NCBI GenBank assembly: GCA_951812895.1
Contig: OX638333.1
Coordinates: 1,416,366 to 1,480,365 of the forward strand
Reading direction: 5' to 3'
Source of the DNA: an uncultured Roseovarius sp.
GTDB taxonomy: Bacteria > Pseudomonadota > Alphaproteobacteria > Rhodobacterales > Rhodobacteraceae
Length of the DNA: 64,000 nt
The notes beneath the pieces were generated by a model. The model did not search any database. It worked only from the letters and a program-made list of their open reading frames with translations, and was not told the DNA's origin. The translations under genes were made by a program, and so were the position numbers. This document shows, one piece after another, positions 19,962-43,818 of this stretch (positions are counted from its first letter, which is position 1; every line of letters begins with the position of its first letter).

Positions 19962-20062
19962 TGCTTTGCATTGAATGAACCATCTGGAAATCGATCACAA
20001 CGATCCTGATTTTTACACTATGTACTATGGAAGGGTTGTCTGGTTGAATCACTGGTTGTTAA

Positions 20063-20087
20063 TTAATGAGACAAATAATCTCATTAA
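20063..20087. promoter_or_regulatory. Palindrome between tauR and xsc
   Basis: TTAATGAGA and TCTCATTAA form a perfect 9-bp inverted repeat with a 7-base AT-rich spacer. It has too little GC for a strong terminator, and lies 10 bp upstream of the candidate TauR repeats. It may be an operator for another regulator or a weak tauR terminator. Confidence 0.45.
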
Positions 20088-20096
20088 GTATTATAT

Positions 20097-20129
20097 GTGG
20101 TCCTATCCTAGGATGTAAACTGGCCCTAC
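20097..20129 (+). promoter_or_regulatory. Candidate TauR direct repeats upstream of xsc
   Basis: GTGGTCCTAT (20097-20106) and CTGGCCCTAC (20120-20129) are direct repeats starting 23 bp apart, about two helical turns. Both fit a TGGNCYTA core close to the TauR consensus I recall. They lie about 80-110 bp before the xsc start, suitable for an activator. Confidence 0.5.
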
Positions 20130-20206
20130 TTAAGCCTTCGCGCATGCCCTAATTTGCGGCCAAATTGCCGGATATTCCCGGCTTATTCCTGCCAGGAGAT
20201 GCACCC

Positions 20207-21982: not shown

Positions 21983-21987
21983 TCCTG

Positions 21988-23753: not shown

Positions 23754-23905
23754 GTTTCTACTTTCGTCCGGGTTCAACGAACGGCGGACGCTGAATTTTC
23801 AGGTTTCCTGGTTTGTTTTTTCGGGAAATAGAACAAAAAAAGAAAGTGGTCGCGAGCGTGGGTGTTCTGCCCTAACGTGGCCGCGAACAGGATAAAGGGT
23901 ACGTG

Positions 23906-26704: not shown

Positions 26705-27447
26705 CAACTCTACCCGAAACCACCCAACGCAAACTTGGCCTTGTTATCGACCTCGACACCTGCGTTGGCTGTCACGCCTGCGTGGTCAGCTGTAAAGGCT
26801 GGAATACCGAAAACTATGGCGCGCCATTGTCGGATCAGAACCCCTATGGCGGTGATCCGTCAGGCACGTTCCTAAACCGTGTGCATTCCTATGAGGTCCA
26901 GCCTGAAGAGGGCGCGGCTCAGCTGATCCATTTCCCGAAATCATGCCTGCATTGCGAAGATGCGCCCTGTGTGACCGTCTGCCCTACCGGCGCCAGCTAT
27001 AAACGCATCGAGGACGGGATCGTTCTGGTGAATGAAAGTGACTGTATTGGTTGTGGCCTGTGTGCCTGGGCTTGCCCATACGGTGCCCGCGAACTGGATG
27101 CAGCCGAAGGGGTGATGAAGAAATGTACCCTTTGTGTGGACCGCATCTACAACGAGAATCTTCCCGAAGAGGACCGGATGCCCGCATGCGTGCGCACCTG
27201 CCCGGCTGGCGCCCGTCATTTTGGTGATTTCGCCGATCCTGAAAGTAACGTGTCAAAGCTGACCGCCGAACGCGGTGGCATGGATTTGATGCCTGAACTG
27301 AATACCAAACCCGTCAACAAATACCTGCCCCCGCGGCCCAAGGATGAGATGGATCAGATCGATGTTCTTGCTCCCTTCCTTGCGCCTGTTGCTGAAGAGC
27401 CTAAGGGCTTCATCGGTTGGCTCGATAAAGCGCTGGAGAAAATCTGA
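26701..27447 (+). CDS. soeB: Sulfite dehydrogenase iron-sulfur subunit SoeB
   Basis: A 248-residue electron-transfer subunit with four ferredoxin-type Cys groups: CVGCHACVVSCKGWN, CLHCEDAPCVTVC, CIGCGLCAWAC and CTLCVD...CVRTC. They carry electrons from the Mo site to the membrane subunit. It overlaps soeA by 4 bp and meets soeC by a shared base (TGATG). Confidence 0.93.
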   Translation: MTTLPETTQRKLGLVIDLDTCVGCHACVVSCKGWNTENYGAPLSDQNPYGGDPSGTFLNRVHSYEVQPEEGAAQLIHFPKSCLHCEDAPCVTVCPTGASYKRIEDGIVLVNESDCIGCGLCAWACPYGARELDAAEGVMKKCTLCVDRIYNENLPEEDRMPACVRTCPAGARHFGDFADPESNVSKLTAERGGMDLMPELNTKPVNKYLPPRPKDEMDQIDVLAPFLAPVAEEPKGFIGWLDKALEKI

Positions 27448-28319
27448 TGCATCCCGCACCTTCCGTTATCGTTTTCACCACTCTTTCCGGTCTCGGCTTT
27501 GGCCTTCTGACTTGGCTGGGTATCGGCATGCCGGATGTATCCGGATGGGTAGCGTTTGTTTTCTTTGCGATTGCCTATGCACTGGCAGTTGGTGGGCTTC
27601 TTGCCTCTACTTTTCACCTCGGCCACCCTGAACGCGCGATCAAGGCGTTCAGCCAGTGGCGCAGTTCGTGGCTCAGCCGCGAAGGTGTTGTTTCAGTAGC
27701 GGCTTTGCTGGTGATGGGCCTGTATGCTTTGGGTCGCGTGTTTCTGGATCAGAACTGGGCGCCAATCGGCTGGCTTGGTGCGGCATTGTCGCTGGCCACT
27801 GTTTACTGCACTTCGATGATTTATGCCCAGCTTGCGACTGTACCACGTTGGAAAACCATTCTGACGCCTGCTCTGTTTCTTTCAATCGCCGTTGGTGGTG
27901 GCGCGCTGTTGGCAGGGGAACGGGATTTTGCCGTCATTCTGCTGCCCGTTGCTGCCGTGTTTCAGATCATCTGGTGGACACGTGGTGATCTGGCATTCGA
28001 GCAAAGCGGGTCGACATTGGCAAGCGCTACCGGTCTTGGCGAACCCGGCCAGGTTCGCGCGTTTGAACCCCCTCATACAGGCACCAATTATCTGCTGCGA
28101 GAATTTGTTTTTCAGGTTGGCCGCAAGCACGCGATCAAGCTAAGGATCATAGCATTTGTGCTTGGCTTTGCCCTACCTGTTTTGCTGGTTTTGGCTCCCT
28201 TCGCGCATGCTCTGTTCGCCGTTGCCGCAATTTGTCATCTAATTGGCATTGCCGCTTCTCGCTGGTTGTTTTTCGCAGAGGCGGAACATGTGGTTGGGCT
28301 TTACTACGGTAAACGGTGA
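27447..28319 (+). CDS. soeC: Sulfite dehydrogenase membrane anchor SoeC
   Basis: A 290-residue DmsC-like quinone-reactive subunit with about eight helices. The family start is HPAPSVIVFTTLSGLGFGLL, followed by the loop FHLGHPERAIKAFSQWRSSWLSRE (residues 51-74). It passes electrons from sulfite to the quinone pool. It directly follows soeB. Confidence 0.92.
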   Translation: MHPAPSVIVFTTLSGLGFGLLTWLGIGMPDVSGWVAFVFFAIAYALAVGGLLASTFHLGHPERAIKAFSQWRSSWLSREGVVSVAALLVMGLYALGRVFLDQNWAPIGWLGAALSLATVYCTSMIYAQLATVPRWKTILTPALFLSIAVGGGALLAGERDFAVILLPVAAVFQIIWWTRGDLAFEQSGSTLASATGLGEPGQVRAFEPPHTGTNYLLREFVFQVGRKHAIKLRIIAFVLGFALPVLLVLAPFAHALFAVAAICHLIGIAASRWLFFAEAEHVVGLYYGKR

Positions 28320-29909: not shown

Positions 29910-31196
29910 ATGACCAAACAAATCAAAGACACATCTCGCAGGGGCGCTCTTAAAACCCTCGCCGGAGGTGTGGCCGGTGCTGCTACAATGCCTTTGTGGG
30001 CGCGCTATGCACAGGCACAGACATCCGAGCCAATCAAAATCGGTTTTCAGGTTCATCGCACTGGCATCGGTGCTGCATATGGGCGCTGGTATGGGCGCAC
30101 GACAGAAGCCGCGGCAAAATTGATTAACGACAATGGTGGCATCAACGGCCGGATGGTTGAGATTGTAGCCGAGGACGATGGAACGGATCCCAAGCGCGGT
30201 GCAGAAGTTGTTGAGAAATTCGCCAATCAGCATGGATGCGACGTTGGATTTGGCACACTCTTTTCCCACGTTGTGATTGGATCGGCCCCTCGGGCGGGTG
30301 AATTGAAACTGCCCTACTTCGTAGTCTCAGAAGGGCATCATGTTGCCAGCGGAATGTTGAACCGCTACACGCTCCAGCCCGGCATTACAGATGTGAAAAG
30401 CCAGGTTCAGGCAATGGCACCTTATGTTGCCTCGAATCTTGGCAAGAAGGTCACGATGATCTTCCCGGACTTTGCGTTTGGCCACGACCATCGCGACTTC
30501 TTTACCGCCGCGATTGAGGCGCAGGGCGGCGAGGTGTTGGAACATATTGCGATCCCACCTACCGAGACGTCGTTCACCAAGTACTTCCCAAAAATCCCGC
30601 GCGAAACAGAAGTGCTCTACCACGTGATGGTGGGCCCGGCTGTTCTGACATTCGTAAAGGAATTGGGAGAATTCTTTGGCCCGAGCCGACCAGAAATGTT
30701 TGGCTTTATTGACAGCTTAGAAGCTGTCGATATCGCAAGCCCTGGTCTTGAATATCTTGAGGGAACATATTTTTGGGAGGGCAACCCACGCCATGCCCAG
30801 GCGGATCAATCAGACCACGACAAAGCATTTCGTGCCGCTGTTGGCGTGAATGATCGCGGCGCATCAATCAGCGATCCCGCAGATGTGTCGACATACGCGC
30901 ATATGTTTGGGTGCTGGGAAACCTTGCATGTGATCAAAGCAGGTATGGAAGCATCCGGATATCAAGGCCCAGGGGACCGTGCGGCCCTGATTGAAGCGGT
31001 TGAAGGTATGACAGATATGCCCGAAAGCCTGGCGCACCCGCAGGGGGCCAAGGTGTTCAATGGCAAGACCCATCAGGTATTTGGCCATCAGTATATCTCT
31101 AAGGTTGAAGGTGGGACGCTTAAGCGGGTTCACACTACATCGATCGAGGATACGCTCTATCCGGATGAAACGGATTACACGACTCAATCGTTCTGA
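29910..31196 (+). CDS. ABC transporter substrate-binding protein, Tat-exported (branched-chain amino acid/amide type)
   Basis: A 428-residue periplasmic type-1 binding protein. The N-terminus carries a twin-arginine leader (TSRRGALKTLAGG, about residues 8-20), with cleavage likely after AQA near residue 35. The start of the mature part (IKIGFQVHRTGIGAAYGR) is typical of the urea, amide and branched-chain amino acid family. The ATG at 29910 follows GGGGAG. It serves most plausibly the LivHMGF-type transporter at 32653-35925. A strong hairpin follows the gene, perhaps to raise its dose over the permeases. Confidence 0.87.
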   Translation: MTKQIKDTSRRGALKTLAGGVAGAATMPLWARYAQAQTSEPIKIGFQVHRTGIGAAYGRWYGRTTEAAAKLINDNGGINGRMVEIVAEDDGTDPKRGAEVVEKFANQHGCDVGFGTLFSHVVIGSAPRAGELKLPYFVVSEGHHVASGMLNRYTLQPGITDVKSQVQAMAPYVASNLGKKVTMIFPDFAFGHDHRDFFTAAIEAQGGEVLEHIAIPPTETSFTKYFPKIPRETEVLYHVMVGPAVLTFVKELGEFFGPSRPEMFGFIDSLEAVDIASPGLEYLEGTYFWEGNPRHAQADQSDHDKAFRAAVGVNDRGASISDPADVSTYAHMFGCWETLHVIKAGMEASGYQGPGDRAALIEAVEGMTDMPESLAHPQGAKVFNGKTHQVFGHQYISKVEGGTLKRVHTTSIEDTLYPDETDYTTQSF

Positions 31197-31224
31197 TCCA
31201 GACATCGAAATAACTGAGAATATC

Positions 31225-31260
31225 TGCCCCCGGCAACAGCATCACCTGCTGCCGGGGGCA
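31225..31260 (+). terminator. GC-rich hairpin after the binding-protein gene
   Basis: TGCCCCCGGC pairs with GCCGGGGGCA, with a small bulge and a GCA/TGC extension around the loop. It begins 28 bp after the stop. Downstream is only moderately T-rich, so it may act as a partial terminator or an mRNA-stabilising hairpin. Confidence 0.65.
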
Positions 31261-31329
31261 TTCATTTCAGTCACACATTTTGTGCACGAATTGGCATAAC
31301 ATCCGGGAAAATACCGGAAGGGAACGCAC

Positions 31330-32052
31330 ATGAAACTCACTGATTTCAAGGCTCTGACATTTGACGTTTATGGCACGCTAATCGACTGGGAAACCGGAAT
31401 GGTGAACGGGCTGAAACCATTGACCGACAAGGTGGAGGGCCTGACCCGCAACAAGATCTTGGAAGCGCATGCGTTTCACGAATCCACCACGCAGCGCTTT
31501 ACGCCTGCCAAAACTTACTCAGATATCCTGGCCGTGGTTTACAAACGCTTGGCTGAGGAATGGGATGTTGCAGCGACCTGGGACGAGTGTCTGACTTATG
31601 GCGCATCTGTCAAAGACTGGCCTGCCTTTGCAGACAGCGCAGGCGCACTCGCCTATCTCAAAAAGCATTACAAGTTGGTAGTTTTGTCGAATGTGGACAA
31701 TGCGAGTTTCGCCCATTCCAATGCCAAGCTGGGTGTTGATTTTGATGCGGCCTACACCGCTGGCGATGTTGGGTCCTACAAACCCGCAGATCGTAACTTC
31801 GACTACATGTTGGAAAACCTTGCGCGAATGGGGATTGGTAAATCCGATATCCTTCACACAGCGGAAAGCATGTTTCACGATCATGGACCAGCAAACAAAC
31901 ACGGCCTATCCAATTGTTGGATATACCGGAGGTACGAACAGGATGGTTTTGGAGCGACCATGCATCCCGGCGTAATGCCACGTTATGACATGATGTTTCA
32001 TTCCATGGCCGATCTGGTCAAAGCTCATCAGGAAGAGCTGCGAGCGGGATAA
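31330..32052 (+). CDS. HAD-type (S)-2-haloacid dehalogenase-like hydrolase
   Basis: A 240-residue HAD of the haloacid dehalogenase type II group. The nucleophile is in LTFDVYGTLIDWETG (Asp14), motif II is VVLSNVDN, and the Lys/Asp segment is GSYKPADRNFDYML. The last motif, ILHTAESMFHDHGPANKHG, differs from phosphatases and is typical of dehalogenase-like members. Haloacids are not implied by the context: it lies among uptake genes of the predicted heterocycle cluster and may act on a pathway intermediate. Confidence 0.8.
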   Translation: MKLTDFKALTFDVYGTLIDWETGMVNGLKPLTDKVEGLTRNKILEAHAFHESTTQRFTPAKTYSDILAVVYKRLAEEWDVAATWDECLTYGASVKDWPAFADSAGALAYLKKHYKLVVLSNVDNASFAHSNAKLGVDFDAAYTAGDVGSYKPADRNFDYMLENLARMGIGKSDILHTAESMFHDHGPANKHGLSNCWIYRRYEQDGFGATMHPGVMPRYDMMFHSMADLVKAHQEELRAG

Positions 32053-32119
32053 TTTCGGCTTCGCATTTGTCTTAGGGCGTGCATAGACTGGCTTTGGAAA
32101 TCCTTATGAAAGCACGCGC

Positions 32120-32602
32120 ATGGCTCGGCTTGACCAACTGGACATCAAAATCCTCTCGGCTTTGCAAAAAAACGGGAGGATCACCAATTCGGCGCTTGCC
32201 GAGTTGATAAACCTGTCGCCAAGCCCGTGTCTGCAGCGAACCAAACGTTTAGAAGCCGAGGGATTTATCACCGGTTATGGCGCAGAAATTGATCTAAGCC
32301 GTATCGGTGATACGCTGCTTGTCTTTACAGAGGTAACGCTGAAAGACCACCGGGTCGAGAAGTTTGAGCAGTTTGAAAAAGTAATCTCCACGTTTCCGGA
32401 AGTGATCGAATGTCACCTCATCAGCGGGGGGTATGACTATCTGTTGAAATTCCTTTGCCGCAGTGTTGCCGATTACCAAACGACGATAGAGCGTATATTG
32501 GAAAGCAGCGCAGGTATCGCCAAGTACTTCAGCTATGTCGTTATAAAATCGCCGATTACTCCACGTCGGCGAGACGTCGGCGATTTCTTCTCGGGCAAAT
32601 GA
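32120..32602 (+). CDS. Lrp/AsnC family transcriptional regulator
   Basis: A 160-residue regulator. The N-terminal HTH is LDQLDIKILSALQKNGRITNSALAEL... with CLQRTKRLEAEGFI as the recognition part. A C-terminal RAM/AsnC ligand domain follows (ECHLISGGYDYLLKF). Such proteins sense amino acids or related small molecules as octamers. Lying between the binding-protein/HAD genes and the permease operon, it is the likely local regulator of the cluster. Confidence 0.88.
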   Translation: MARLDQLDIKILSALQKNGRITNSALAELINLSPSPCLQRTKRLEAEGFITGYGAEIDLSRIGDTLLVFTEVTLKDHRVEKFEQFEKVISTFPEVIECHLISGGYDYLLKFLCRSVADYQTTIERILESSAGIAKYFSYVVIKSPITPRRRDVGDFFSGK

Positions 32603-32652
32603 CTGCATTTCTCTTGCCCTCATGCTGGTGTCGGGGCAATCCTTGAATCAAC

Positions 32653-33579
32653 ATGGAATTGGGCCCTTATATTCTGCTGGCTTCTCTTGAAGGTTCGGTT
32701 ACTGCGGCGGTGTTGGCACTGACCGCGGTGGGGTTGTCGCTCGTTTTTGGTGTGATGCGGGTTGTGAACATTGCACACGGCGAGTTTTTCATGCTTGGCG
32801 CGGTCATCGCCTGGTTTGTGGCGCATTCTCTGGGGGGGAACGCAGCCCTGGGATTTGCCGCAGCTTTGATCATTGCACCACTTTTGGTAGGCGCACTTGC
32901 GATTGGCGCGGATATGACAATTCTCAAACGCCTAAAATATGATCCCGAACGTACCATCGTGGCCACCATTGGTTTGCTTTACATTATTCAACAAGTGACG
33001 CTGATGACCTATGGCCCCGAGGCGCGACCGGTAGAAGCACCATTTAATACCCGCCTTGCAATTCCTTGGTTCGAGTGGGGGGATGACGGATTTTCTCTTT
33101 ACTGGCCGTGGGGGCTTAGCACCACCAGCTACAAACTGGCGGTGATCGGTGCGGCGATAACCGTTTTGATGGGTGTCTGGGTATTGATGACTCGCACGCG
33201 GATTGGATTGGTAATGCGGGCCACTCAGGCAGATCGCGACATGGCTTTGGCCTTTGGTATCCCGGTCGAGCGCGTCTATGCGATGGTATTTGGTCTTGGT
33301 GCAGCACTTGCAGCCTTCTCTGCGGTATTGATTGTTCCGATCCAGCAAGCGCATTACCTGATGGGTGCCGATCCATTGCTGCTAAGCTTTATCGTGGTGA
33401 TCATCGGCGGATTGGGAAGCCTGCCGGGCACGGTGTTAGCTGCTGTTCTAATAGGATTGAGTGATGGCATTATCTCGGTCTTCTTCTCGCCCACGCTTGC
33501 TAAAATTCTGGCTACGCTTCTGGTAGGTCTGGTTCTGGTGTTCAGACCACACGGCTTGTTCGGGGTGCGAAACGGATGA
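32653..33579 (+). CDS. ABC transporter permease, LivH type
   Basis: A 308-residue permease with about eight helices. The start LTAVGLSLVFGVMRVVNIAHGEFFMLGA and the cytoplasmic loop GLVMRATQADRDMALAFGIPVERV identify LivH-type subunits. Its stop overlaps the LivM-type gene by 4 bp. With the binding protein at 29910 it should import an amino-acid-like or amide/heterocycle solute. Confidence 0.92.
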   Translation: MELGPYILLASLEGSVTAAVLALTAVGLSLVFGVMRVVNIAHGEFFMLGAVIAWFVAHSLGGNAALGFAAALIIAPLLVGALAIGADMTILKRLKYDPERTIVATIGLLYIIQQVTLMTYGPEARPVEAPFNTRLAIPWFEWGDDGFSLYWPWGLSTTSYKLAVIGAAITVLMGVWVLMTRTRIGLVMRATQADRDMALAFGIPVERVYAMVFGLGAALAAFSAVLIVPIQQAHYLMGADPLLLSFIVVIIGGLGSLPGTVLAAVLIGLSDGIISVFFSPTLAKILATLLVGLVLVFRPHGLFGVRNG

Positions 33580-34520
33580 GTGATCAGGCAAAGATCATTG
33601 CGCTGCATGGCGGCCTGATCCTGCTGTTGTTTGCGCTCCAATTTGTGCTGCCCGCATATCATCACGGCAATCTGGCCCGGATTATGGTTCTGGCATCTTA
33701 TGCCATCGGCTACAACATTCTGTTCGGCTATACCGGGTTATTGAGCCTGGGGCATGCGCTGTTCTTCGCAGCTGGCATGTACGGTATGGCGCTTAGTATA
33801 CATCACTTGGAGTGGGCCCCGGCACCCGCGCTGCTGGCCGGTCTTGTCGCTGGTATTCTTGTATCCGGAACACTTGCATTGCTCGCGTTACGCACAACGG
33901 GCGTTGCTTTTATGATCGTAACGCTGATGTTTGCCCAAGCCGGATACCTGACCGTTCTCTATTTCGGAGAGTATACCCGAGGCGACGAAGGCTTTGTTAT
34001 TCAACAGGCCCAAAGAATGCTCTGGGGCGTCGACCTGAGCGATCCGGTCAATCGCTACTTTGCGGCCTGGGGCTTGCTGACCGTTTGTTTCCTTGCGGCG
34101 CTTTGGCTGGTCCGGCATCCCTTCGGACGCACGTTGATCGCCATCAGAGAGAACGAAGAACGGGTGCGCATGCTCGGCTACAACACATTTGCACACAAGC
34201 TGACCGCGATGATGATTTCCGGTACAATTGCGGCTGCAGCAGGCGCCTTCTACGGATTGTTGTTTGGCTATGCAGGGGCAAGTTTTGCAACGGTTCAATA
34301 CTCCATTTTCCCGCTACTCTGGGTTTTGCTTGGTGGTGCCGGAACCGTATTGGGGCCATTCATCGGTACGCTCTTCATGTTTTACCTCATCGATCTGTCA
34401 AGCGGCATCACCACCGCATATATGCTGATCGCGGGCGTTGCACTTGTCGCCTTGACCCTCTTCGCGCCACAGGGGCTTGTCGGTGAATTGCGGCGCAGAT
34501 TCTGGGGATGGCTGCCATGA
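33576..34520 (+). CDS. ABC transporter permease, LivM type
   Basis: A 314-residue membrane subunit. It carries the family segment LLSLGHALFFAAGMYG and the coupling loop IAIRENEERVRMLGYNTFAHKL. It pairs with the LivH-type subunit. It overlaps both its neighbours by 4 bp. Confidence 0.92.
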   Translation: MSDQAKIIALHGGLILLLFALQFVLPAYHHGNLARIMVLASYAIGYNILFGYTGLLSLGHALFFAAGMYGMALSIHHLEWAPAPALLAGLVAGILVSGTLALLALRTTGVAFMIVTLMFAQAGYLTVLYFGEYTRGDEGFVIQQAQRMLWGVDLSDPVNRYFAAWGLLTVCFLAALWLVRHPFGRTLIAIRENEERVRMLGYNTFAHKLTAMMISGTIAAAAGAFYGLLFGYAGASFATVQYSIFPLLWVLLGGAGTVLGPFIGTLFMFYLIDLSSGITTAYMLIAGVALVALTLFAPQGLVGELRRRFWGWLP

Positions 34521-35230
34521 CAACTTGCCTTCTCAAAACCCGTGGTCTGACCAAACATTTCGGCGGATTGGTTGCGGTTGAGGGCGTGGATTTTGAGCTG
34601 CAGCAGGGTCAGGTTCGCGCTCTTATCGGGCCGAATGGCGCGGGTAAAACCACCTTGGTGGGAATGATCAGCGGTCGCATTTCTCCCACCTCGGGCATGG
34701 TCGAATTTGACGGGCAAAACGTGACGCGACTGCCTGCCCACAAACGCATCATGGCTGGCATGGCGTATACATTTCAGATCACCTCTGTATTCGTAAATCT
34801 GTCTGCCGGCGAAAACGTAGCGCTTGCCGCGCGACGCCGGTTGAATGGTACTGAAGCGGATAAGGCAGTGCGCAAATCGCTTGATCGTTTGGGATTGCTT
34901 GACCGGATCGATCAGGAAGCAGGAGAGCTCAGTTATGGCCATCAGCGCCTGCTGGAGATCGCGATGGGCCTTGTACAGAATCCGCGGCTGTTGATTCTTG
35001 ATGAACCAACGCAGGGCCTTTCAGATGGGGAAATAGCAGACTTCAAATTGCTGGTTCGAGAGCTGGCTGGTGAAACCACCGTTCTGCTTATTGAGCACAA
35101 TATGAGCGTGGTGATGGAAACTGCAGACGAAGTAACTGTTTTAAATTTTGGTGAGGTTCTGGCAGAAGGCACCCCTCTTGCAATACGCGAAGACCAGACC
35201 GTTCAGTCGGCCTATTTGGGAACAAGCTGA
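34517..35230 (+). CDS. ABC transporter ATP-binding protein, LivG type
   Basis: A 237-residue ATPase. Walker A is GPNGAGKTT, the signature is LSYGHQRLLEIAMGL (a variant of LSGGQ usual in this family), and Walker B is LLILDEPTQGLSD. The ATG at 34517 gives the ATGA overlap seen across this operon; an in-frame ATG at 34508 is an alternative. It energises import through the LivH/LivM pair. Confidence 0.92.
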   Translation: MTTCLLKTRGLTKHFGGLVAVEGVDFELQQGQVRALIGPNGAGKTTLVGMISGRISPTSGMVEFDGQNVTRLPAHKRIMAGMAYTFQITSVFVNLSAGENVALAARRRLNGTEADKAVRKSLDRLGLLDRIDQEAGELSYGHQRLLEIAMGLVQNPRLLILDEPTQGLSDGEIADFKLLVRELAGETTVLLIEHNMSVVMETADEVTVLNFGEVLAEGTPLAIREDQTVQSAYLGTS

Positions 35231-35925
35231 TGCTGGAGTTGCGCGGAGTAAATGCAGGGTACGGTCGGGCACAGATTCTGAGAGATCTTTCGCTCACGGT
35301 CAGGCGTGGGGAGATACTGTGTTTGCTTGGGCGCAATGGAGCCGGAAAAACGACCACCATGCAGGCCATCATGGGTCTTTTGCCGCTGATGTCAGGGTCG
35401 GTGCATCTGGATGACCAGGAGGTCAGCGCGCTTTCATCCCATGAAATTCCGCGGGCGGGAATAGGTTACATTCCACAGGGACGCAGATTATTTGCCGGCT
35501 TGACTGTCGCACAGAACCTCGAGATCGGCCTGAGGGCACGCAACAGTGGACCCGAGGTGCTGGACGACGTCCTTTCGCTGTTCCCACGTTTGCGCGAACG
35601 GTATCGCCAGCGGGCGCAGACGCTATCGGGAGGTGAACAGCAAATGCTGGCAACAGCACGGGCGCTATGTTTGCAACCTAAGGCCCTTTTGCTTGATGAA
35701 CCAACCGAGGGATTGCAGCCCTCGATGATTGAAGCGATCCGGCAGGTCATCGTGAAAATGCGTGAAACCGGGGTAGCAATTTTGCTGGTCGAACAGCGCG
35801 TTGACGCAGTCCTTTCGGTTGCGGATCATGTTGCATTTATTGAAAACGGCCGAAAAGGCGCCGTTTTCCCCGCCGCTGAGCTGCAAGCGGACCACAGCAT
35901 TGTTGAGCGATACGTGGGTGTCTGA
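35230..35925 (+). CDS. ABC transporter ATP-binding protein, LivF type
   Basis: A 231-residue ATPase. Walker A is GRNGAGKTTTMQAIMG, the signature LSGGEQQMLATARAL, Walker B LLLDEPTEGLQPS. Its start shares a base with the previous stop (TGATG). It completes the four-gene transporter; 100 bp follow before the Mo-hydroxylase genes. Confidence 0.92.
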   Translation: MLELRGVNAGYGRAQILRDLSLTVRRGEILCLLGRNGAGKTTTMQAIMGLLPLMSGSVHLDDQEVSALSSHEIPRAGIGYIPQGRRLFAGLTVAQNLEIGLRARNSGPEVLDDVLSLFPRLRERYRQRAQTLSGGEQQMLATARALCLQPKALLLDEPTEGLQPSMIEAIRQVIVKMRETGVAILLVEQRVDAVLSVADHVAFIENGRKGAVFPAAELQADHSIVERYVGV

Positions 35926-36025
35926 CCAGTCAACTGGCGATCTGTTGTGTTGACAGCCGCGGGTGCCCTGCCGCACCATTCTGGCGAAAGCTTCAGATCC
36001 AGTTGATGATTTTCTCTAGGGAGGA

Positions 36026-36886
36026 ATGGTGACGGATTATCACCGGCCCGAAACGCTTGATACGGCACTAGGCATTCTTGCCGATACACGCGCGGCTATT
36101 GCAGCGGGTTGTACGGATTTGTATCCGGCAACACAGGCTCAAACCTTGCGAGGTCAGGTTCTCGACGTGACGCGAATTGCGTCTTTGCGTGGCATCGCCA
36201 ACACAGAGAAATGCATCCGTATTGGCGCGACCACCAAGTGGAGCGATATCATTGACGCAGACCTGCCGCCTGCATTCGATATGCTAAAGGAGGCTGCAAA
36301 AGAGGTCGGATCGGTCCAGATACAAAACTCGGGAACGGTTGCGGGAAATTTGTGCAATGCCTCGCCCGCTGCTGATGGTGTACCATGCCTGTTGGCTCTG
36401 GACGCGAATGTAGAGATTGCTTCTATCCGGGGCTACCGTGATGTGCCGTTGAATGAGTTCATCACCGGGCCGCGAAAAACTGTGTTAGAACCAGATGAAT
36501 TGGTTACTGCCATCGACATCCCAAACGAAGCAGCCGGTGGGATATCCCGGTTTCTCAAGCTGGGCGCACGGCGGCATCTGGTGATTTCCATCGCAATGGT
36601 TGCGGTCAGGTTGGTTGTTGAGGATCAGCGTATTGCTGACGCCGCAGTATCAGTGGGGTCCTGTAGTGCGGTGGCAAAGCGCCTGTCAGACCTAGAAGCA
36701 GAACTAACTGGTCGTGATGTTTCCAACGTCGCAACGGGTATAGATTTCAACGCCCTCATCTCTCCCAATCTGGCGCCGATTGCCGACATTCGTGCCGACG
36801 CCTTATATCGCAACACTTCGGCATGCGAATTGGTTAGACGTGCCATTGATGATCTGACTGTTACCGAAGCCGGTGCCGCTGCATGA
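36026..36886 (+). CDS. Mo-hydroxylase FAD-binding (medium) subunit
   Basis: A 286-residue subunit of the xanthine dehydrogenase/CO dehydrogenase family. The FAD-phosphate loop is AAGCTDLYPATQ, the second FAD segment is QIQNSGTVAGNLCNASPAADG, and the C-terminal CO_deh_flav_C part follows. It passes electrons from the iron-sulfur clusters to NAD+ or another acceptor. AGGGAGG lies one base before the ATG at 36026, so the GTG at 36029 may be the true start. It overlaps the fused Mo subunit gene by 4 bp. Confidence 0.9.
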   Translation: MVTDYHRPETLDTALGILADTRAAIAAGCTDLYPATQAQTLRGQVLDVTRIASLRGIANTEKCIRIGATTKWSDIIDADLPPAFDMLKEAAKEVGSVQIQNSGTVAGNLCNASPAADGVPCLLALDANVEIASIRGYRDVPLNEFITGPRKTVLEPDELVTAIDIPNEAAGGISRFLKLGARRHLVISIAMVAVRLVVEDQRIADAAVSVGSCSAVAKRLSDLEAELTGRDVSNVATGIDFNALISPNLAPIADIRADALYRNTSACELVRRAIDDLTVTEAGAAA

Positions 36887-39576
36887 ACCGTACTGTTGAA
36901 ACCATTCCGTTGACTGTAAACGGGCAAGCGGTGGAACTACCCGCCGATCCCGCGACCCGATTATCGGCGGCCTTACGGGAAATTCTGGAATTGCGGGGCA
37001 CCAAGGTTGGATGCGACGCCGGTGATTGCGGGGCTTGTACTGTGCTGCTTGATGGCGCGCCGGTTTGCGCTTGTCTGACGCCTTTGGCGCAGGTCACGGG
37101 GCGGTCAGTAACCACAATTGAGGGCATGGGGAATGCATCGCTTAAGCAAGCTTTCCTTCGCCACGGAGCAGCACAATGTGGGATATGCACCCCCGGCATG
37201 TTGATGGCTGCAACTGCTCTGCTTGCTGATAATCCAAACCCAACGCGCATGGAAGCAGAAGATGCTCTTGGTGGGGTTTTGTGCCGATGCACCGGCTATG
37301 CAAAGATCATTGACGCGGTGCTAGATACGACACCCAAAGCAGCCACTCCTCTGCCCAAATCGGGTGATGCGGTGGGGTCACGGATCGAGCGGTTGGATGG
37401 TAAATCTAAAGTTGATGGCACCGAAGTGTATGGTGCTGACTATTGCCCGGAGAGTGTATTGTTGGTTCGGGCCGTTCGCGCGCCATCGGCACCGATGGCA
37501 TTCCGGTTTGGCGACATTGATGCTTGGACTGCCATGCAGGCAGGCCCGGTACAGGTATTCACTGCCAATGACATCCCTGGAAAAAACTGTTTTGGTACCA
37601 TCCCACCCTATGCTGACCAACCGGCGCTGGCCGAAACACAGGTCAGATTGCGTGGAGAAGCGGTCGCGCTTGTCGCTGGTGATGCTGCTGTGATCGAGAA
37701 CATTGATTTGGATCGCTTTCCGGTCACTTGGGAAGCGCTTGACCCAATACTCCCGGTTCACTCCAACCGGCCTGATGACTGTCTGATTACGGGTCTGGTG
37801 CAACGCGGTGAACCAGAGGTTGCTTTGAAAGAAGCGACCCATGTAGCAGAGGCGCATATCGAAACGCCCTATATTGAGCATGCCTATATCGAACCCGAAG
37901 CCGGCGTGGCGTGGATGGATGGTGCTACTTTGGTTGTGCAGGCATGCACGCAGGCGCCGGTTATGGACCGGGATGACATGGCATGTATTCTGGCCCTTGA
38001 ACCTGAATATGTGCGCATTATCCCCGCAGCCGCAGGCGGCGGATTTGGTGCAAAGCTAGACCTCTCATTGCAACCGCTAATTGGTCTGATTGCCTTAAAA
38101 ACTGGCCGACCCGCACGGATGATCTATTCCCGTGCTGAATCCATGATGTCGACAACAAAACGCCATCCATCCAAGATGACCGGACGGGCGGGCATTGATT
38201 CAACGGGCCGGATCACCGGAATGGTTTTTGATGGTGATTTCAACACTGGTGCATATGCCAGCTGGGGACCAACGGTCGCTGGCAGGGTGCCGGTGCACGC
38301 GTCGGGGCCTTACTATACGCCAGCCTATCACGCAGAGGCGCGGGCAATTCATACTTACGAACCAATTTCTGGGGCCTTTCGTGGATTTGGCGTGCCGCAG
38401 GCGGCAATACTGCAGGAGACACTCTACGATGATCTGGCCGCGCAGGCCGGTATGGACCAGCTGGAATTCCGCCGGATTAATGCGTTGCAGGACGGTCAGG
38501 AAACTGTTTGCGGTCAGGTTCTTTATGGGGTCGGAATTGCAGCTTGCCTTGAGGCGCTAAGAGAGCCCTGGCAAATCGCTTTGAAATGTGCCGGAGAGGC
38601 AAATCGGCTTGAAGGCCACTATCGCTACGGAGTGGGTATTGCGTCTTGCTGGTATGGATGTGGCAACACCGGTTTGCCCAACCCCTCAACAATCCGCATA
38701 GGTATAACACCACGGGGTGAATTGTGCTTGCATCAGGGTGCAACGGACATTGGGCAAGGCGCAAATACCGTGATCGCTCAAATATGTGCAGATGCTCTTG
38801 GCGTGCCGATAGAACAAATCACCCTGATCGGACCGGATACCGCGCTGACGCCTGACTGCGGCAAAACCTCTGCCTCACGCCAAACCTATGTAACGGGCAA
38901 GGCTGCGTTACTTGCCGGACTGGCGCTGAGAAACCGCATTCTGAGTCTGACCAACACTGGTCCGGAGGCGCGGATTCTTCTGCGCGATGGAGTGATTGCG
39001 GTCACAGATGGCCAGGGAGAGCGGAGCATTGCGCTGGCAGAAATCACACCTGACGCAAATGGCTATGCGCTCGCTGCCGAAGAAACATATGATCCGCCGA
39101 CCACACCGTTGGATGAAAACGGGCAAGGATCACCCTATGCAGTTTACGGCTATGGCGCGCAGATCGCAGAGGTGCGTGTAGACACAACGCTTGGTACGGT
39201 AAAAGTAACCCGAATAACGGCAGCGCATGATCTTGGGAAAGTGATCAACCCGCTATTGGCCGAAGGACAGGTGGAAGGTGGAATTGCACAGGGTCTGGGC
39301 CTCGCGTTGATGGAAGAATATGTGCCGGGGCGAACGGAGAACCTGCACGATTACCTCATACCAACCACGGGAGACATGCCAGAGATCAAGAGCATCTTTG
39401 TCGAGGTCCCTGATCCCGAAGGGCCACTCGGGGCGAAGGGTTTGGGTGAACATGTCCTGATCCCTACAGCGCCTGCCATTCTTAATGCCATTCGCCACGC
39501 AACGGGGGCACGGATCACGAAACTACCCGCCCTGCCGCACCGGGTGCTGGCCGCGATCAAAGAGGCGGGTTCATGA
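36883..39576 (+). CDS. Mo-hydroxylase with fused [2Fe-2S] and molybdopterin subunits
   Basis: An 897-residue fusion. Residues 1-160 hold two [2Fe-2S] domains (GCDAGDCGACTVLLDG; CGICTPG; LCRCTGYAKI). From about 165 on is the xanthine-dehydrogenase-type Mo domain, with a Mo-cofactor segment AAGGGFGAKLDLS and the catalytic Glu in LGAKGLGEHVLIPTAP near the end. Such enzymes hydroxylate carbon next to nitrogen in heteroaromatic rings using water. Small and large subunits are usually separate in bacteria. The downstream reductase-like gene suggests a pyridine-like rather than purine substrate; xanthine dehydrogenase itself cannot be excluded. Confidence 0.88.
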   Translation: MNRTVETIPLTVNGQAVELPADPATRLSAALREILELRGTKVGCDAGDCGACTVLLDGAPVCACLTPLAQVTGRSVTTIEGMGNASLKQAFLRHGAAQCGICTPGMLMAATALLADNPNPTRMEAEDALGGVLCRCTGYAKIIDAVLDTTPKAATPLPKSGDAVGSRIERLDGKSKVDGTEVYGADYCPESVLLVRAVRAPSAPMAFRFGDIDAWTAMQAGPVQVFTANDIPGKNCFGTIPPYADQPALAETQVRLRGEAVALVAGDAAVIENIDLDRFPVTWEALDPILPVHSNRPDDCLITGLVQRGEPEVALKEATHVAEAHIETPYIEHAYIEPEAGVAWMDGATLVVQACTQAPVMDRDDMACILALEPEYVRIIPAAAGGGFGAKLDLSLQPLIGLIALKTGRPARMIYSRAESMMSTTKRHPSKMTGRAGIDSTGRITGMVFDGDFNTGAYASWGPTVAGRVPVHASGPYYTPAYHAEARAIHTYEPISGAFRGFGVPQAAILQETLYDDLAAQAGMDQLEFRRINALQDGQETVCGQVLYGVGIAACLEALREPWQIALKCAGEANRLEGHYRYGVGIASCWYGCGNTGLPNPSTIRIGITPRGELCLHQGATDIGQGANTVIAQICADALGVPIEQITLIGPDTALTPDCGKTSASRQTYVTGKAALLAGLALRNRILSLTNTGPEARILLRDGVIAVTDGQGERSIALAEITPDANGYALAAEETYDPPTTPLDENGQGSPYAVYGYGAQIAEVRVDTTLGTVKVTRITAAHDLGKVINPLLAEGQVEGGIAQGLGLALMEEYVPGRTENLHDYLIPTTGDMPEIKSIFVEVPDPEGPLGAKGLGEHVLIPTAPAILNAIRHATGARITKLPALPHRVLAAIKEAGS

Positions 39577-41030
39577 CAGAGAAACGCCGTGAACGTGAAG
39601 AAAAGATCCGGTGCGACGCCTGTCCCGTCATGTGTTACATCGCCGACGGTAAGATCGGCGCATGTGATAGATATGCCAATCAGGGTGGCCGCATTATCCG
39701 GTGCGATCCACTGACAATCCTTGATCGGCGCCTTGCTGACGGCGGCGAAGTGCGGCCGTTCCTCGGGCAGGATTGGGACGGGCAGGTGGTAGGAGACGAC
39801 GACTTGTTTGTTAGCGGCGTTGGGTCCGGCACCACCTATCCTGATTACAAGCCTGCGCCCTTTGTTGTCAGCCGAGAAGTTGATGGCGCAGATTTTGTAA
39901 CTGTCGTGACAGAGGCAATTTTTTCCTATTGCGGTGCGAAGGTTAAGGTCGATACCGACCGCCACTTGGGGGCAGAGACAGCAATCGTGCGCTGCGAAGG
40001 TGAAGTAATCGGCCATGTGACAACGTCTGAATATGGCTCTCAGATGTTGTCTCTTGGTGGTGTTGAACATCTTACAGGGGGCTCAAAGCCCGAAGGGCGC
40101 ATCACATGTGATGCGCTGCTGCGGTTGTGCAATTGCGAAGCGGTGGAACTCACCATCGACGAAGGTGCGACCGTCATCGTGCAGGCCGGAAAAGCGCCAA
40201 TTGTAGATGGTCAGCGTGAGGAACGGATGCGTGTCGGATGCGGGTCCGCAACCATCGGCATGTTCGCCTCACAATGGCAGGGGCTCGTGGATGAAGTGGT
40301 TGTTGTTGATGATCACATAACGGGTGTGGTCAGTGAACATCAGGCTGGCAAAGTGCTCGACTGGCCCGACACAGGCATTCGGATCAAGGGGCGGCGATCC
40401 ACTCCGGGGCGCTACTTCCAGGTGGCACATCCCGGACTTGGCTGGGGTGGTACGGATATCGAGGATCCCTTGACCATCCTCAATCCCTGGCTGGAGAAAA
40501 AAGGGGCACGACCCGGTTTGACCCTGTTGATGGTGTCAACGACGGGGGAGCATTCTGCTTATTACGAACTCGACCATGACCTCGTCCCGCAGTCAAAGCC
40601 GATGCCCGACGCATTGCAGCCTTCGGTCGATCTGATCGCTGAAAACTGCGAACCCGCACTGTGCACAGTGCTGTTTCAGGGGGGCGCCGGAGGGTCGCTT
40701 CGGTCGGGCGTGACCAGGAACCCCGTAAAGCTCACCCATTCGGTACAGGCGCTGAAGACCCATGTGACCTGTGGTGGTGCGCCGACCTATGTCTGGCCCG
40801 GCGGCGGCATTACGTTCACAGTTGATGTTACAAAACTGCCAGAGGGATCATTTGGTTACGTCCCTACACCGGCGTTGGTTGCACCTTTGGAATTTACACT
40901 GACACGGGACGATTATCGTAGTCTTGGCGGACATGATGCGTCTGTGCGAAGCGTGGATGATATCCTCGAAAAGGGTGGAGAGTATGGCGCTGAATTTCGT
41001 GTGGTGCCGTCGGGTAAAGGTAACACCTGA
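39573..41030 (+). CDS. 6-hydroxynicotinate-reductase-like iron-sulfur protein
   Basis: A 485-residue protein. It begins with a Cys cluster, Cys14, Cys17, Cys21 and Cys31 (CDACPVMC...GAC), suited to a [4Fe-4S] centre. The overall length and this N-terminus match what I know as 6-hydroxynicotinate reductase, which in Eubacterium barkeri reduces 6-hydroxynicotinate to 1,4,5,6-tetrahydro-6-oxonicotinate with ferredoxin. It overlaps the Mo-hydroxylase gene (ATGA), so hydroxylation followed by ring reduction is a natural reading. Substrate not proven: nicotinate is only one option. Confidence 0.7.
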   Translation: MTEKRREREEKIRCDACPVMCYIADGKIGACDRYANQGGRIIRCDPLTILDRRLADGGEVRPFLGQDWDGQVVGDDDLFVSGVGSGTTYPDYKPAPFVVSREVDGADFVTVVTEAIFSYCGAKVKVDTDRHLGAETAIVRCEGEVIGHVTTSEYGSQMLSLGGVEHLTGGSKPEGRITCDALLRLCNCEAVELTIDEGATVIVQAGKAPIVDGQREERMRVGCGSATIGMFASQWQGLVDEVVVVDDHITGVVSEHQAGKVLDWPDTGIRIKGRRSTPGRYFQVAHPGLGWGGTDIEDPLTILNPWLEKKGARPGLTLLMVSTTGEHSAYYELDHDLVPQSKPMPDALQPSVDLIAENCEPALCTVLFQGGAGGSLRSGVTRNPVKLTHSVQALKTHVTCGGAPTYVWPGGGITFTVDVTKLPEGSFGYVPTPALVAPLEFTLTRDDYRSLGGHDASVRSVDDILEKGGEYGAEFRVVPSGKGNT

Positions 41031-41872
41031 TGCAGAAAGCCCAGATATCATGGTTGCCAGATGGAAAACGTCTGCACCTGCATCACGGTCCGATTGATAT
41101 GATCGTGGACGTCACAGGACCGGATCGGAGGGCTGCGCTATGTCGGGCAGCGGATCGGTTTGAGAACTTACTGGATGAGCTTGTCATGGAGCTGCCACGC
41201 TTGAGAAGCGCGTTTGGGTCAGAGCTTAATGGCGAAACCGCAAAGAGGATGAGTGACGCTGTTGCTTGTTTTCCAACGGAATTTATCACGCCGATGGCGG
41301 CGGTTGCGGGGGCCGGGGCGGAGACAGTTCTGAACGCTATTTGTGACGGTCCCGGAGTGCACAAAGCTTATGTAAACAACGGCGGTGACGTGGCCTTTGC
41401 TCTTTCGCCGGGGGAATGCATGACAGCGGTGGTTGCCGCTGATCCGCCTGCTCAGGTCAGGATTGGGTATAACACACCGGTACGCGGCATTGCCTCTTCC
41501 GGATGGCGGGGGCGCAGTCATTCGTTAGGTATCGCGGATAATGTAACAGTACTGGCAAAATCTGCGGCGATAGCGGATGCGGCGGCGACGTTAATCGCCA
41601 ACGCTATTGATCTGCCGGGCCATGCCGCTATTGATCGCAGACCGGCATCTGAGCAGAGTCCGGATAGTGACCTGGGCGATCGGCTTGTAACGGTTGGCGT
41701 TGGATCGCTGACTTCTCAAGACATATCTGTGGCCCTGGAAAACGGCGCAAGCCAGGCACAGGACTTTATGGTCCGTGGCTTGATATCCGGTGCTGCTTTG
41801 ACCTTGAAAAATACGTTTCACCACGTTGGTGAGATCCCTCTTTTCCATCAGAAAGAACTCCAATATGCCTGA
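41030..41872 (+). CDS. UPF0280 (ApbE-like) protein
   Basis: A 280-residue protein with the look of ApbE flavin transferases: AYVNNGGDVAFAL (ApbE has VNxGGDI), RGIASSGWRGRSHSLGIAD, and ADNVTVLAKSAAIADAAAT. ApbE attaches FMN to proteins; UPF0280 members have no proven function. I see no lipoprotein signal, so it is cytoplasmic. It shares a base with the reductase-like gene before it and overlaps the next by 8 bp. It may mature a flavin site in the reductase or act as an enzyme in the pathway. Confidence 0.8.
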   Translation: MQKAQISWLPDGKRLHLHHGPIDMIVDVTGPDRRAALCRAADRFENLLDELVMELPRLRSAFGSELNGETAKRMSDAVACFPTEFITPMAAVAGAGAETVLNAICDGPGVHKAYVNNGGDVAFALSPGECMTAVVAADPPAQVRIGYNTPVRGIASSGWRGRSHSLGIADNVTVLAKSAAIADAAATLIANAIDLPGHAAIDRRPASEQSPDSDLGDRLVTVGVGSLTSQDISVALENGASQAQDFMVRGLISGAALTLKNTFHHVGEIPLFHQKELQYA

Positions 41873-42446
41873 CTTCACATTGCGGAAAACCGCTGTATTT
41901 ATTGAAGAAATTCATCATGATGGTGGCCCTGAACCGGCAATTCCCAGGCGTCGTGGGGCGGTTGCGGCGTTGGTCAGGAACCCCTTTGCCGATGGCTATG
42001 TGAACGATTTGCAGTCGGCCATGGATGACCTCAAACCATTGGGCCTGATGATGACTGAGCGGTTGATCGACGCGATGGGCGGGGCCGATGGTATTGACGG
42101 ATATGGCAAAGCTGCGATGGCCGGTGAAGCGGGTGAGTTGGAACATACGGCGCTGTGGCATGTGCCCGGCGGATATGCCATGCGCGCCCGATTGGGAGAG
42201 GCCAGGGCGATTGTGCCATCGTCGATGAAACAAGGAGGGCCGGGTACACGGATTGATGTGCCACTGGGCCATATCAATGCCGCCTATGTCCGAAGCCATT
42301 TTGACGGAATGGAGGTTGGCCTGCCCGACGGGCCGCGGGCGGATGAACTGCTTTTCATCCTAGCGATGAGCCGGGGCGGCCGGATTCATGACCGTATGGG
42401 CGGTCTGACGGTTGACGACGTGAAGGGGGAAGACGGGTTGCGATAG
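41865..42446 (+). CDS. PF06684 (DUF1185, 'amino acid synthesis') family protein
   Basis: A 193-residue protein ending a tightly coupled run. Typical segments are RKTAVFIEEIHHDGG at the start, RRGAVAALVRNPFADGYVNDL, and GKAAMAGEAGELEHTALWHVPGGYAMR. Known structures of the family show a variant of the Bacillus chorismate-mutase fold, and its reaction is not known. Cyanuric acid hydrolase/barbiturase domains are built on a related fold, so this protein is a candidate ring-opening hydrolase in the pathway. That is inference only. Confidence 0.8.
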   Translation: MPDFTLRKTAVFIEEIHHDGGPEPAIPRRRGAVAALVRNPFADGYVNDLQSAMDDLKPLGLMMTERLIDAMGGADGIDGYGKAAMAGEAGELEHTALWHVPGGYAMRARLGEARAIVPSSMKQGGPGTRIDVPLGHINAAYVRSHFDGMEVGLPDGPRADELLFILAMSRGGRIHDRMGGLTVDDVKGEDGLR

Positions 42447-42858
42447 AACCCATAATTCTGAAATCGTTAATAGCACCATCCGGTGCTAATACAGGGGGGT
42501 GATATCCGTACACCCCCTGTGCACCACCCGTACACCGCCGCGCTGCAGAATTTTGGCGAGCGAAATTGGTTAACGCGTGCCTGTACGGTGCTGTTGGAGT
42601 GTTTCAGCCCAAGTGAGCCCCGGTGAATCCGATGTGCACTGATGGCGGTTTTAAGGCATGATTTGCGACCTGAATTTTTTGGGTATATTTTGCAAGAAAG
42701 AAGCAAATGGTGAACTCAAAGACGCTGGTTTCTCTCGCATACCTGATTGCCTAATCAGCCAGAAAGAGTAACGTCATCTCTACACCCTCTCGCTGATGAA
42801 TGTTTCAGTAGCTGGGTGTTTCCGGATGGCTGGAAGCGAAATGAATGGGGGAGGTATC
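42447..42858. other. Intergenic region with the inverted iteron module
   Basis: A 412-bp gap between the PF06684 gene and the ureohydrolase gene. The first third is iteron module copy 2. The rest, 42578-42858, has no further repeat that I can see and ends with the ribosome site GGGGGAGG at 42847-42854. Confidence 0.6.
42466..42577 (-). repeat. Iteron module, copy 2 (inverted)
   Basis: Read on the minus strand: GTTAACC from 42574, then GTGTAC, GTGCAC and GTGTAC starting at 42535, 42524 and 42513 (exactly 11 bp apart), ATCACCCCCC from 42503 and ATTAAC from 42471. The spacings 39-11-11-10-32 match copy 1 (38-11-11-10-31). It begins 19 bp after the PF06684 stop. Confidence 0.75.
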
Positions 42859-43818
42859 ATGGGATCACATGGCTATGAAAGTGGGCGGCTTAATCTGCCC
42901 TTTGTCGGAATTTGTACCTTTGCCAAAGGTGAGTATGTGCCTGACTGGTCTGCGATCGACGCCGATGTGGCTGTTATGGGCGCGCCGTTTGATTTTGGCT
43001 GTCAGTGGCGGTCTGGCGCGCGGATGGGACCGCGGGCAATTCGAGAGGCATCGACGCTTTTCTCGTTCGGACATGGGGGTGCTTATGACTTTGAGGACGA
43101 CGTCACCTATCTGCCGGCAGGCGAGGTGAAAATCGTCGACATTGGTGATGCGGACATTATTCACACTGACACGATGGCCAGTCACGCCAACATTGAAACC
43201 GGTGTGCGCGCCATTCTCAAATCCGGCGCTTTGCCTGTGGTTTTGGGAGGCGATCATTCCGTCAACATCCCCTGCATCAATGCATTTGACGACCAAGAGC
43301 CGATTCACGTGGTTCAGATCGACGCCCATCTAGACTTTGTTGATGAACGCCACGGGGTGCGATTTGGCCACGGCAACCCAATGCGACGCGCGGCCGAGAA
43401 GGATTATGTGACGGGGCTCACCCAAATCGGAATCCGCAATGTGTCATCCACCGCCAAGGAGGGCTATGAACAGGCCCGCGAAATGGGATCCGAGATTCTG
43501 TCGGTCCGGCATCTGCGCAAGATGGGTGTGGATGGCGTTCTGGACCGTATCCCGGGAGGAAAACGCTATTACGTGACGATCGACATTGATGCGTTCGACC
43601 CATCCATTGCGCCGGGGACAGGCACGCCGAGCCATGGTGGATTTATCTATTATGAAGTGCTGGAATTGCTTGATGGGTTGACCAAACGCGGGGACATCGT
43701 GGGGGTTGATCTGGTCGAGGTGGCACCGGATTACGATCAGACCGGGTCAACTGGTATATTGGCCGCGCAGATCCTGATGAATTTGATTGGGCGGATTTTG
43801 CATAACCGGGAGGGCTGA
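42859..43818 (+). CDS. Ureohydrolase (agmatinase/guanidino-acid hydrolase family)
   Basis: A 319-residue binuclear-Mn hydrolase. Metal-ligand motifs are LGGDHSVN, IDAHLDF and TIDIDAFDPS, with the C-terminal Glu in VDLVEVAPDYD. It cleaves urea from a guanidino compound (agmatine, guanidinobutyrate or guanidinopropionate) or acts on a formimino substrate; the specificity loop is not diagnostic. The ATG at 42859 has GGGGGAGG upstream; an in-frame ATG at 42796 does not. It may belong to the upstream cluster or to the guanidine-related gene at 44613. Confidence 0.88.
   Translation: MGSHGYESGRLNLPFVGICTFAKGEYVPDWSAIDADVAVMGAPFDFGCQWRSGARMGPRAIREASTLFSFGHGGAYDFEDDVTYLPAGEVKIVDIGDADIIHTDTMASHANIETGVRAILKSGALPVVLGGDHSVNIPCINAFDDQEPIHVVQIDAHLDFVDERHGVRFGHGNPMRRAAEKDYVTGLTQIGIRNVSSTAKEGYEQAREMGSEILSVRHLRKMGVDGVLDRIPGGKRYYVTIDIDAFDPSIAPGTGTPSHGGFIYYEVLELLDGLTKRGDIVGVDLVEVAPDYDQTGSTGILAAQILMNLIGRILHNREG

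Follow-up and report, generated by a model that had tools for sequence, protein, structure and literature searches.

What does an uncultured Roseovarius do with an operon that places a molybdenum (Mo) hydroxylase beside a relative of 6-hydroxynicotinate reductase (Hnr), and which enzyme would complete the pathway? The system genes lie on the + strand, from 29910 to 42446, of the window, which here means the whole stretch of 64,000 nucleotides that was analysed (G000:C1:1416366-1480365). I read the operon as a variant of the reductive nicotinate pathway of the Eubacterium barkeri and Azorhizobium type, in which the protein pair HyuAB would open the ring. I give this reading, including the full route set out below and the roles of the UPF0280 and PF06684 proteins, a probability of roughly two in three. 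It is classed as a variant of the reductive nicotinate cluster because no enamidase gene was found in the genome and HyuAB is present instead.

An earlier note on this DNA had proposed an undescribed system for the import, hydroxylation, reduction and hydrolytic opening of a pyridine-like compound. A pyridine carboxylate that is imported, hydroxylated by a Mo enzyme and then reduced in its ring is still the best reading. The hydrolytic opening has to be taken out of the operon; no known ring-opening gene was found there, and the candidate HyuAB genes lie about 0.58 Mb away. Nor can the system be called undescribed, as a 2012 paper already shows that Azorhizobium and three members of the Bradyrhizobiaceae have an Hnr cluster (PMC3511419). 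The route is known in outline; what looks new is an operon without a known ring opener in a genome without enamidase, together with the either-or pattern of HyuAB and enamidase.

The proposed route is as follows. A binding protein of the twin-arginine (Tat) type and a Liv-type ATP-binding cassette (ABC) transporter would import nicotinate. A hydroxylase made of a flavin adenine dinucleotide (FAD) subunit and a fused iron-sulphur (FeS)-Mo subunit would, judging by homology, yield 6-hydroxynicotinate, which the Hnr orthologue would reduce to 1,4,5,6-tetrahydro-6-oxonicotinate. UPF0280 would attach the flavin of Hnr or help to load it. The unlinked, ATP-dependent HyuAB would then open the lactam in place of enamidase; here the genes and the either-or pattern are observed, and the reaction is what I infer from them. 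At the weakest step, PF06684 would hasten the reaction in which 2-(aminomethylene)glutarate, the product of ring opening, gives 2-formylglutarate and ammonium. The product would pass via glutarate to acetyl-CoA, as in Azorhizobium.

Hnr and its partner genes

Neither Pfam nor NCBIfam gave a match at E <= 0.001 for the 485-residue protein encoded from 39573. Thus, its identity rests on the comparison with E. barkeri. Over 457 residues it shares 40% identity with E. barkeri Hnr, and it matches the Hnr profile with 427.7 bits (E = 3.4e-128), which bears out the similarity noted earlier; judged by these alignments, the protein is an orthologue of Hnr. The CxxCPxxC...GAC cluster site is kept in 41 of 42 aligned Hnr rows, including the window's. 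Two of the 42 rows come from a single gene that appears to be split (L070, in G016), its two adjoining matches lying in different frames, either as a pseudogene or through a sequencing error. A ferredoxin-like N-terminal part with two 4Fe-4S motifs occurs only in the four Bacillota rows, and the window Hnr is the short form without it, like the other Pseudomonadota rows. In the PDB comparison the Hnr fold was not recognised. Alhapel and co-workers reportedly purified the E. barkeri enzyme in 2006 with a covalent flavin, one 2Fe-2S cluster and two 4Fe-4S clusters. Genes for ferredoxin-NADP reductase lie in 16 of the 44 Pseudomonadota Hnr stretches and are a plausible electron source for Hnr.

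Does the gene combination occur elsewhere? A census of 398 Pseudomonadota genomes found Hnr in 32 and the NF003322 subfamily of UPF0280 in 32, and the two sets of genomes are identical. UPF0280 always lies downstream of Hnr on the same strand. The gap between the matches is 8-86 bases in 30 of the 32 cases, and 318 and 503 bases in the other two, one of which (L068) has a MarR gene in between; the UPF0280 match of G386 crosses a stop codon. PF06684 was found in 59 of the 398 genomes, covering 31 of the 32 with Hnr. The co-occurrence of these families, which had been predicted from the window, is therefore found in other genomes. All of the 31 genome Hnr stretches hold UPF0280, and 30 of them hold PF06684. 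Beyond Hnr, the UPF0280 family was seen in two methanogen controls, both below the cut-off, and as a second copy in two of four Bacillota genomes.

With the PDB entry 3hrd_C as the query, four Bacillota loci were found, among them the reference locus of E. barkeri VPI 5359. In the E. barkeri locus (L072), about 10 kb long, the order is Hnr, an overlapping UPF0280 gene, a dehydrogenase, NdhF, S, L and M, a membrane protein, an amidohydrolase and PF06684. The NdhF is 100% identical to the letters of 3hrd_C. The first gene was equated with the characterised Hnr by position and similarity, not through an accession link; the dehydrogenase was read as Hgd by eye and position, the amidohydrolase as enamidase, and the membrane protein belongs to the PTS_EIIC_2 family of Pfam. 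All four Bacillota genomes carry Hnr and PF06684, and each has a UPF0280 gene that scores under the NF003322 cut-off. Thus, the trio is a very old association. An enzyme is reported for every catalytic step of the E. barkeri pathway. Since UPF0280 and PF06684 are both in this cluster, accessory roles are likelier for them than the unassigned extra steps suggested earlier.

The E. barkeri cluster resembles the window in having Hnr followed by an overlapping UPF0280 gene, a Mo nicotinate dehydrogenase and PF06684. In contrast, the window Hnr lacks the two-cluster N-terminal part, the NdhF/S/L/M hydroxylase is replaced by an FAD subunit and one fused FeS-Mo chain, and the enamidase-type gene of L072 has no counterpart found in the window genome. 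Alhapel and co-workers are said to have reported in 2006 that nine Proteobacteria have the genes of the first three enzymes, and Kitts and co-workers reportedly described in 1992 an Azorhizobium pathway via a tetrahydro-oxo acid and glutarate. As regards the Azorhizobium/Bradyrhizobiaceae cluster, the nine genomes of genus g30 that have enamidase only use the NicAB hydroxylase with enamidase, whereas the window has the FAD and fused FeS-Mo subunits with HyuAB elsewhere. According to PMC3511419, the Hnr of strain SG-6C is 42% identical to that of E. barkeri, and the cluster contains "conserved proteins of unknown function". I read these as the two proteins UPF0280 and PF06684.

UPF0280 and the substrate of the operon

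What would UPF0280 do for Hnr? A flavin role is proposed because UPF0280 co-occurs exactly with Hnr, is akin to ApbE, and E. barkeri Hnr reportedly holds a covalent flavin. Loading of the Hnr flavin by UPF0280 is the most economical explanation of the exact pairing and of that reported flavin. Of 14 UPF0280 rows, 13 matched the Pfam ApbE model (PF02424) when E values up to 10 were admitted, the best being 7.7e-7, and the solved relative 2o34 matches the UPF0280 profile at 7.6e-13. As in the ApbE flavin transferases, the GGD, SG and D..T sites are kept; GGD, SG, D183 and T187 are invariant in 41 of 41 UPF0280 rows. Unlike in those enzymes, the general-base His is not conserved and the proposed target has no DxxSGAT acceptor motif (0 of 42 Hnr rows). 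At the position of ApbE His257, aligned by eye, the 41 rows have F in 32, L in four, H in three, W in one and Y in one; the window protein is one of the three with His. The residue roles, including that of His257, are those given for V. cholerae ApbE in PMC12052999. On these alignments UPF0280 is ApbE-related, and it is not classed as an ApbE transferase.

A competing idea, to which I give somewhat less than even odds, is that UPF0280 never touches flavin and is a partner subunit, or an Fe-S or folding factor, of Hnr. The unconserved His and the missing acceptor motif agree with such a role. Still, the invariant sites resemble those of ApbE, most members match the ApbE model, and E. barkeri Hnr is reported to carry its flavin covalently. 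Two residues of Hnr were considered as flavin acceptors. T381 lies in a sequence (SLRSGVT) that resembles the ApbE motif, but it is preceded by Ser at position 378 in only five of 42 rows and is Cys in E. barkeri and three other rows, and the idea was dropped; T227 (GSAT) is Ala in three rows and cannot be a universal site.

Is nicotinate the substrate? Relatives of the binding protein, 66-85% identical, were found in seven of the 48 further Hnr loci. In the PDB, the FAD subunit is matched best by the FAD subunit of E. barkeri nicotinate dehydrogenase (3hrd_C, E = 1.5e-26), and the top scores of the fused Mo subunit went to aldehyde oxidoreductases. The hydroxylase adjoins Hnr in the window, and nicotinate is its predicted substrate. 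The hydroxylases vary: among the 31 genome Hnr loci, 16 have a window-like FAD subunit and a further 14 have NicA- and/or NicB-type proteins. This variety, together with the aldehyde oxidoreductase scores, would suit a system whose physiological substrate is not nicotinate, the hydroxylase and Hnr converting some other pyridine carboxylate or N-heterocycle. I consider this unlikely. Despite the differing hydroxylases, Hnr remains 59-76% identical across the Pseudomonadota clusters (43 of 44 loci, the split L070 gene being unscored), which suggests a single common reduction substrate, and the match of the FAD subunit points to nicotinate. Moreover, nicotinate and 6-hydroxynicotinate both support growth of strain SG-6C, a carrier of such a cluster, and 6-hydroxynicotinate appears transiently (PMC3511419).

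HyuAB, enamidase and PF06684

Which enzyme would open the reduced ring? A search of the window genome found no enamidase (best match only 29 bits). It was found that a HyuA gene at G000:C1:2041923-2043950 encodes a protein 70% identical to the HyuA of a plasmid Hnr cluster, and that HyuB adjoins it (L119, G000:C1:2041815-2045704, with PF01968/PF05378 and PF02538 in adjacent genes). Four further HyuA-like genes of the genome, one of them within the window, are only 31-36% alike. A fused hydantoinase A/B of 1196 residues is encoded at 2491-6081 on the - strand of the window; it is only 36% identical to the nicotinate-linked HyuA, is presumably 5-oxoprolinase-like, and is not the proposed opener. 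5-Oxoprolinase is ATP-dependent, and HyuAB is taken to be alike.

Is HyuAB tied to Hnr? HyuB and enamidase were searched in 80 genomes, made up of the 32 that carry Hnr and 48 that lack it. HyuB (E <= 1e-150, all matches at least 66% identical) was found in 17 of the 32 and none of the 48, and enamidase at an identity of at least 60% likewise in 17 of the 32 and none of the 48. Fifteen Hnr genomes have enamidase only, 15 have HyuAB only, two have both (G123 and G194), and none has neither; the window genome is of the HyuAB type. If the two genes were independent, the probability that no genome lacks both would be 2.4e-7, a figure that ignores kinship and so is not a true probability. A single stop codon is crossed by five of 17 HyuB rows and seven of 19 enamidase rows. 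The contrast within the window's family, where HyuB is present in five of six Hnr genomes (the remaining one has enamidase) and in none of the 21 that lack Hnr, is cleaner than the whole-sample figure. Among plasmids, 13 of 26 Hnr records were examined; nine have HyuAB of the window type and four have enamidase, with none having both or neither, and one enamidase record (L162) also carries a more distant HyuAB pair (42-43%). In the 31 genome Hnr stretches of about 20 kb, HyuA and/or HyuB lies in eight, enamidase in 11, and neither is within reach in 12. A search of the open-access literature recognised no paper linking HyuAB or UPF0280 to this pathway. Apart from this, two genomes without Hnr (G289 and G238; L137 and L138) have a 41% relative of enamidase directly beside PF06684, possibly part of a further pathway.

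Could the either-or pattern be lineage hitch-hiking, with HyuAB doing another job that is common in the same genera? The concentration in genera would allow it, since nine of the 15 enamidase-only genomes belong to g30 and six of the 15 HyuAB-only genomes to g34, and HyuAB is unlinked in the window genome, among unrelated-looking neighbours. However, HyuA and/or HyuB lies inside the Hnr stretch in the eight genome loci and nine plasmid loci counted above, from several families, and the contrast within the window's family holds; I regard hitch-hiking as improbable. It is very doubtful that HyuAB is a bystander and that the lactam is hydrolysed and the ring opened by PF06684 (or UPF0280), since E. 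barkeri and the three other Bacillota loci carry an enamidase-type gene and PF06684 together, enamidase or HyuB is present in 32 of 32 Hnr genomes, G139 has HyuB without PF06684, and PF06684 occurs in trigonelline-type clusters too.

PF06684 was rejected as a specific marker of the pathway, as 28 of the 59 genomes with it lack Hnr. The Hnr-linked proteins have Hnr, UPF0280 and either enamidase or HyuAB as partners, in contrast to other members of PF06684/DUF1185 (3byq, 2qtp), including TgnF of trigonelline degradation, whose type is accompanied by a luciferase-type monooxygenase, a flavin reductase, an aldehyde dehydrogenase and a hydrolase. TgnF is named as a homologue in PMC7913881. Around PF06684 genes away from Hnr, 17 stretches were inspected, with the PF06684 open reading frame placed in 13; aldehyde dehydrogenase-like genes were read in 11, flavin reductase-like in 10, luciferase-like in eight and hydrolase-like in seven, the names being checked against Pfam for L120 only. 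L120 (G000:C1:4382000-4401900) is a trigonelline-type cluster of the window genome itself, with its own PF06684 paralogue. A third paralogue (L121, G000:C1:2528000-2547900) lies, by eye, amid ribosomal-protein and EF-Tu genes, in a ribosomal operon that seems broken up by unrelated genes. G123 and G194, which have HyuB, carry a second locus (L131 and L139) with two PF06684 copies and enamidase, apart from the Hnr locus.

Several points weigh against the nicotinate route with HyuAB and the roles proposed here. The activities of all genes of the locus are predictions, and the window yielded no ferredoxin reductase like those of the other clusters. Besides the variable His257 position and the lack of an acceptor motif in Hnr, the window's own UPF0280 is the one row without a Pfam ApbE match at E up to 10, and flavin mononucleotide (FMN) transferases in the PDB match the UPF0280 profile only at E = 1.2-3.2. 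PF06684 is not indispensable, as it is missing from G139, where Hnr, UPF0280 and HyuB are all present. HcdD, a PF06684 protein of a 7-hydroxycoumarin operon, showed no effect according to PMC7913881, and it should meet no enamine there. HyuAB is far from the operon, the 32 Hnr genomes are phylogenetically non-independent, as the shares of g30 and g34 indicate, and the 48 genomes without Hnr were picked non-randomly, from printed handles.

A broader combination of claims is tentative, and I would sooner bet against it: that UPF0280 is a second ApbE branch, in most members of which the catalytic His is missing, and that it flavinylates a single dedicated enzyme, Hnr; that Hnr is a pyridone-ring reductase whose fold was not recognised in the PDB; and that an ATP-dependent HyuAB took the place of a metal-dependent enamidase in roughly half of the Pseudomonadota with Hnr that were sampled. 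UPF0280 and PF06684 gain specific, testable roles in a vitamin B3 pathway. If true, the UPF0280 role would widen protein flavinylation to include one dedicated target enzyme that lacks the usual acceptor motif, modified by proteins in most of which the catalytic His is missing. The HyuAB swap, if true, would explain how the pathway is completed without enamidase, including in plasmid-bearing Rhizobium, Sagittula and Pseudosulfitobacter records, and would give a gene-based marker for the route.

Layout of the operon and neighbouring genes

Family searches and the list of open reading frames confirmed the genes named in the earlier note, with their positions and + strand (Table 1). The Liv genes were read from that list and from relatives in other Hnr loci, and no family search was made on them. 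Neighbouring genes overlap by 1 to 13 bases from LivH to LivF and from the FAD subunit to PF06684, whose ATG lies within the 3' end of UPF0280. The binding protein starts with the ATG at 29910, and its twin-arginine motif (SRRGALK) was spotted by eye. Promoter-like sites (seven versus 10.4 expected) and terminator-like sites (17 versus 14.3 expected) were at chance level.

Table 1. Features of the operon and the gene that follows it, in window coordinates
Feature	Position	Strand	Basis or remark
ABC substrate-binding protein, Tat-type (Peripla_BP_6)	29910..31196	+	Proposed ligand nicotinate or a relative
HAD type II hydrolase	31330..32052	+	NCBIfam TIGR01428, 158 bits vs cut-off 125
Lrp/AsnC regulator	32120..32602	+	Family matches; probably local
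LivH-type permease	32653..33579	+	Reading frame and relatives in other Hnr loci
LivM-type permease	33576..34520	+	Reading frame and relatives in other Hnr loci
LivG-type ATPase	34508..35230	+	Reading frame and relatives in other Hnr loci
LivF-type ATPase	35230..35925	+	Reading frame and relatives in other Hnr loci
Mo hydroxylase FAD subunit, proposed nicotinate 6-hydroxylase	36026..36886	+	Family match and PDB 3hrd_C
Mo hydroxylase fused 2Fe-2S and molybdopterin subunit	36883..39576	+	Family and PDB matches
Hnr, 6-hydroxynicotinate reductase orthologue, short form, 485 aa	39573..41030	+	E. barkeri similarity and profile
UPF0280, ApbE-related	41030..41872	+	NF003322, 327 bits vs cut-off 290; proposed Hnr flavin-attachment/maturation factor
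PF06684 (DUF1185) protein	41865..42446	+	216 bits vs Pfam cut-off 27; proposed enamine/imine-processing partner
Agmatinase/arginase-family enzyme	42796..43818	+	Preceded by a 349-base gap; probably outside the system

Not all of these genes belong to the conserved cluster. The HAD enzyme and the Lrp regulator, formerly counted as parts of the system, were each found in none of the 48 other Hnr loci, whose stretches span only about 10-15 kb on each side and where MarR-type regulators often replace Lrp. The agmatinase-like gene and a DDAH-like gene were likewise rejected (each 0 of 48 within the same reach). The range of the earlier note also takes in the arginase-family gene, which it left unmentioned; a 75% relative of this enzyme adjoins a trigonelline-type cluster in L126 (G226). 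Upstream of the operon, at 18504-28319, the window encodes a MocR/GntR-type regulator, a thiamine pyrophosphate (TPP) enzyme, a phosphate acetyltransferase and a Mo oxidoreductase with 4Fe-4S and DmsC-like anchor subunits, which I take to be a taurine/sulfoacetaldehyde degradation cluster with a sulfite-dehydrogenase-like complex.

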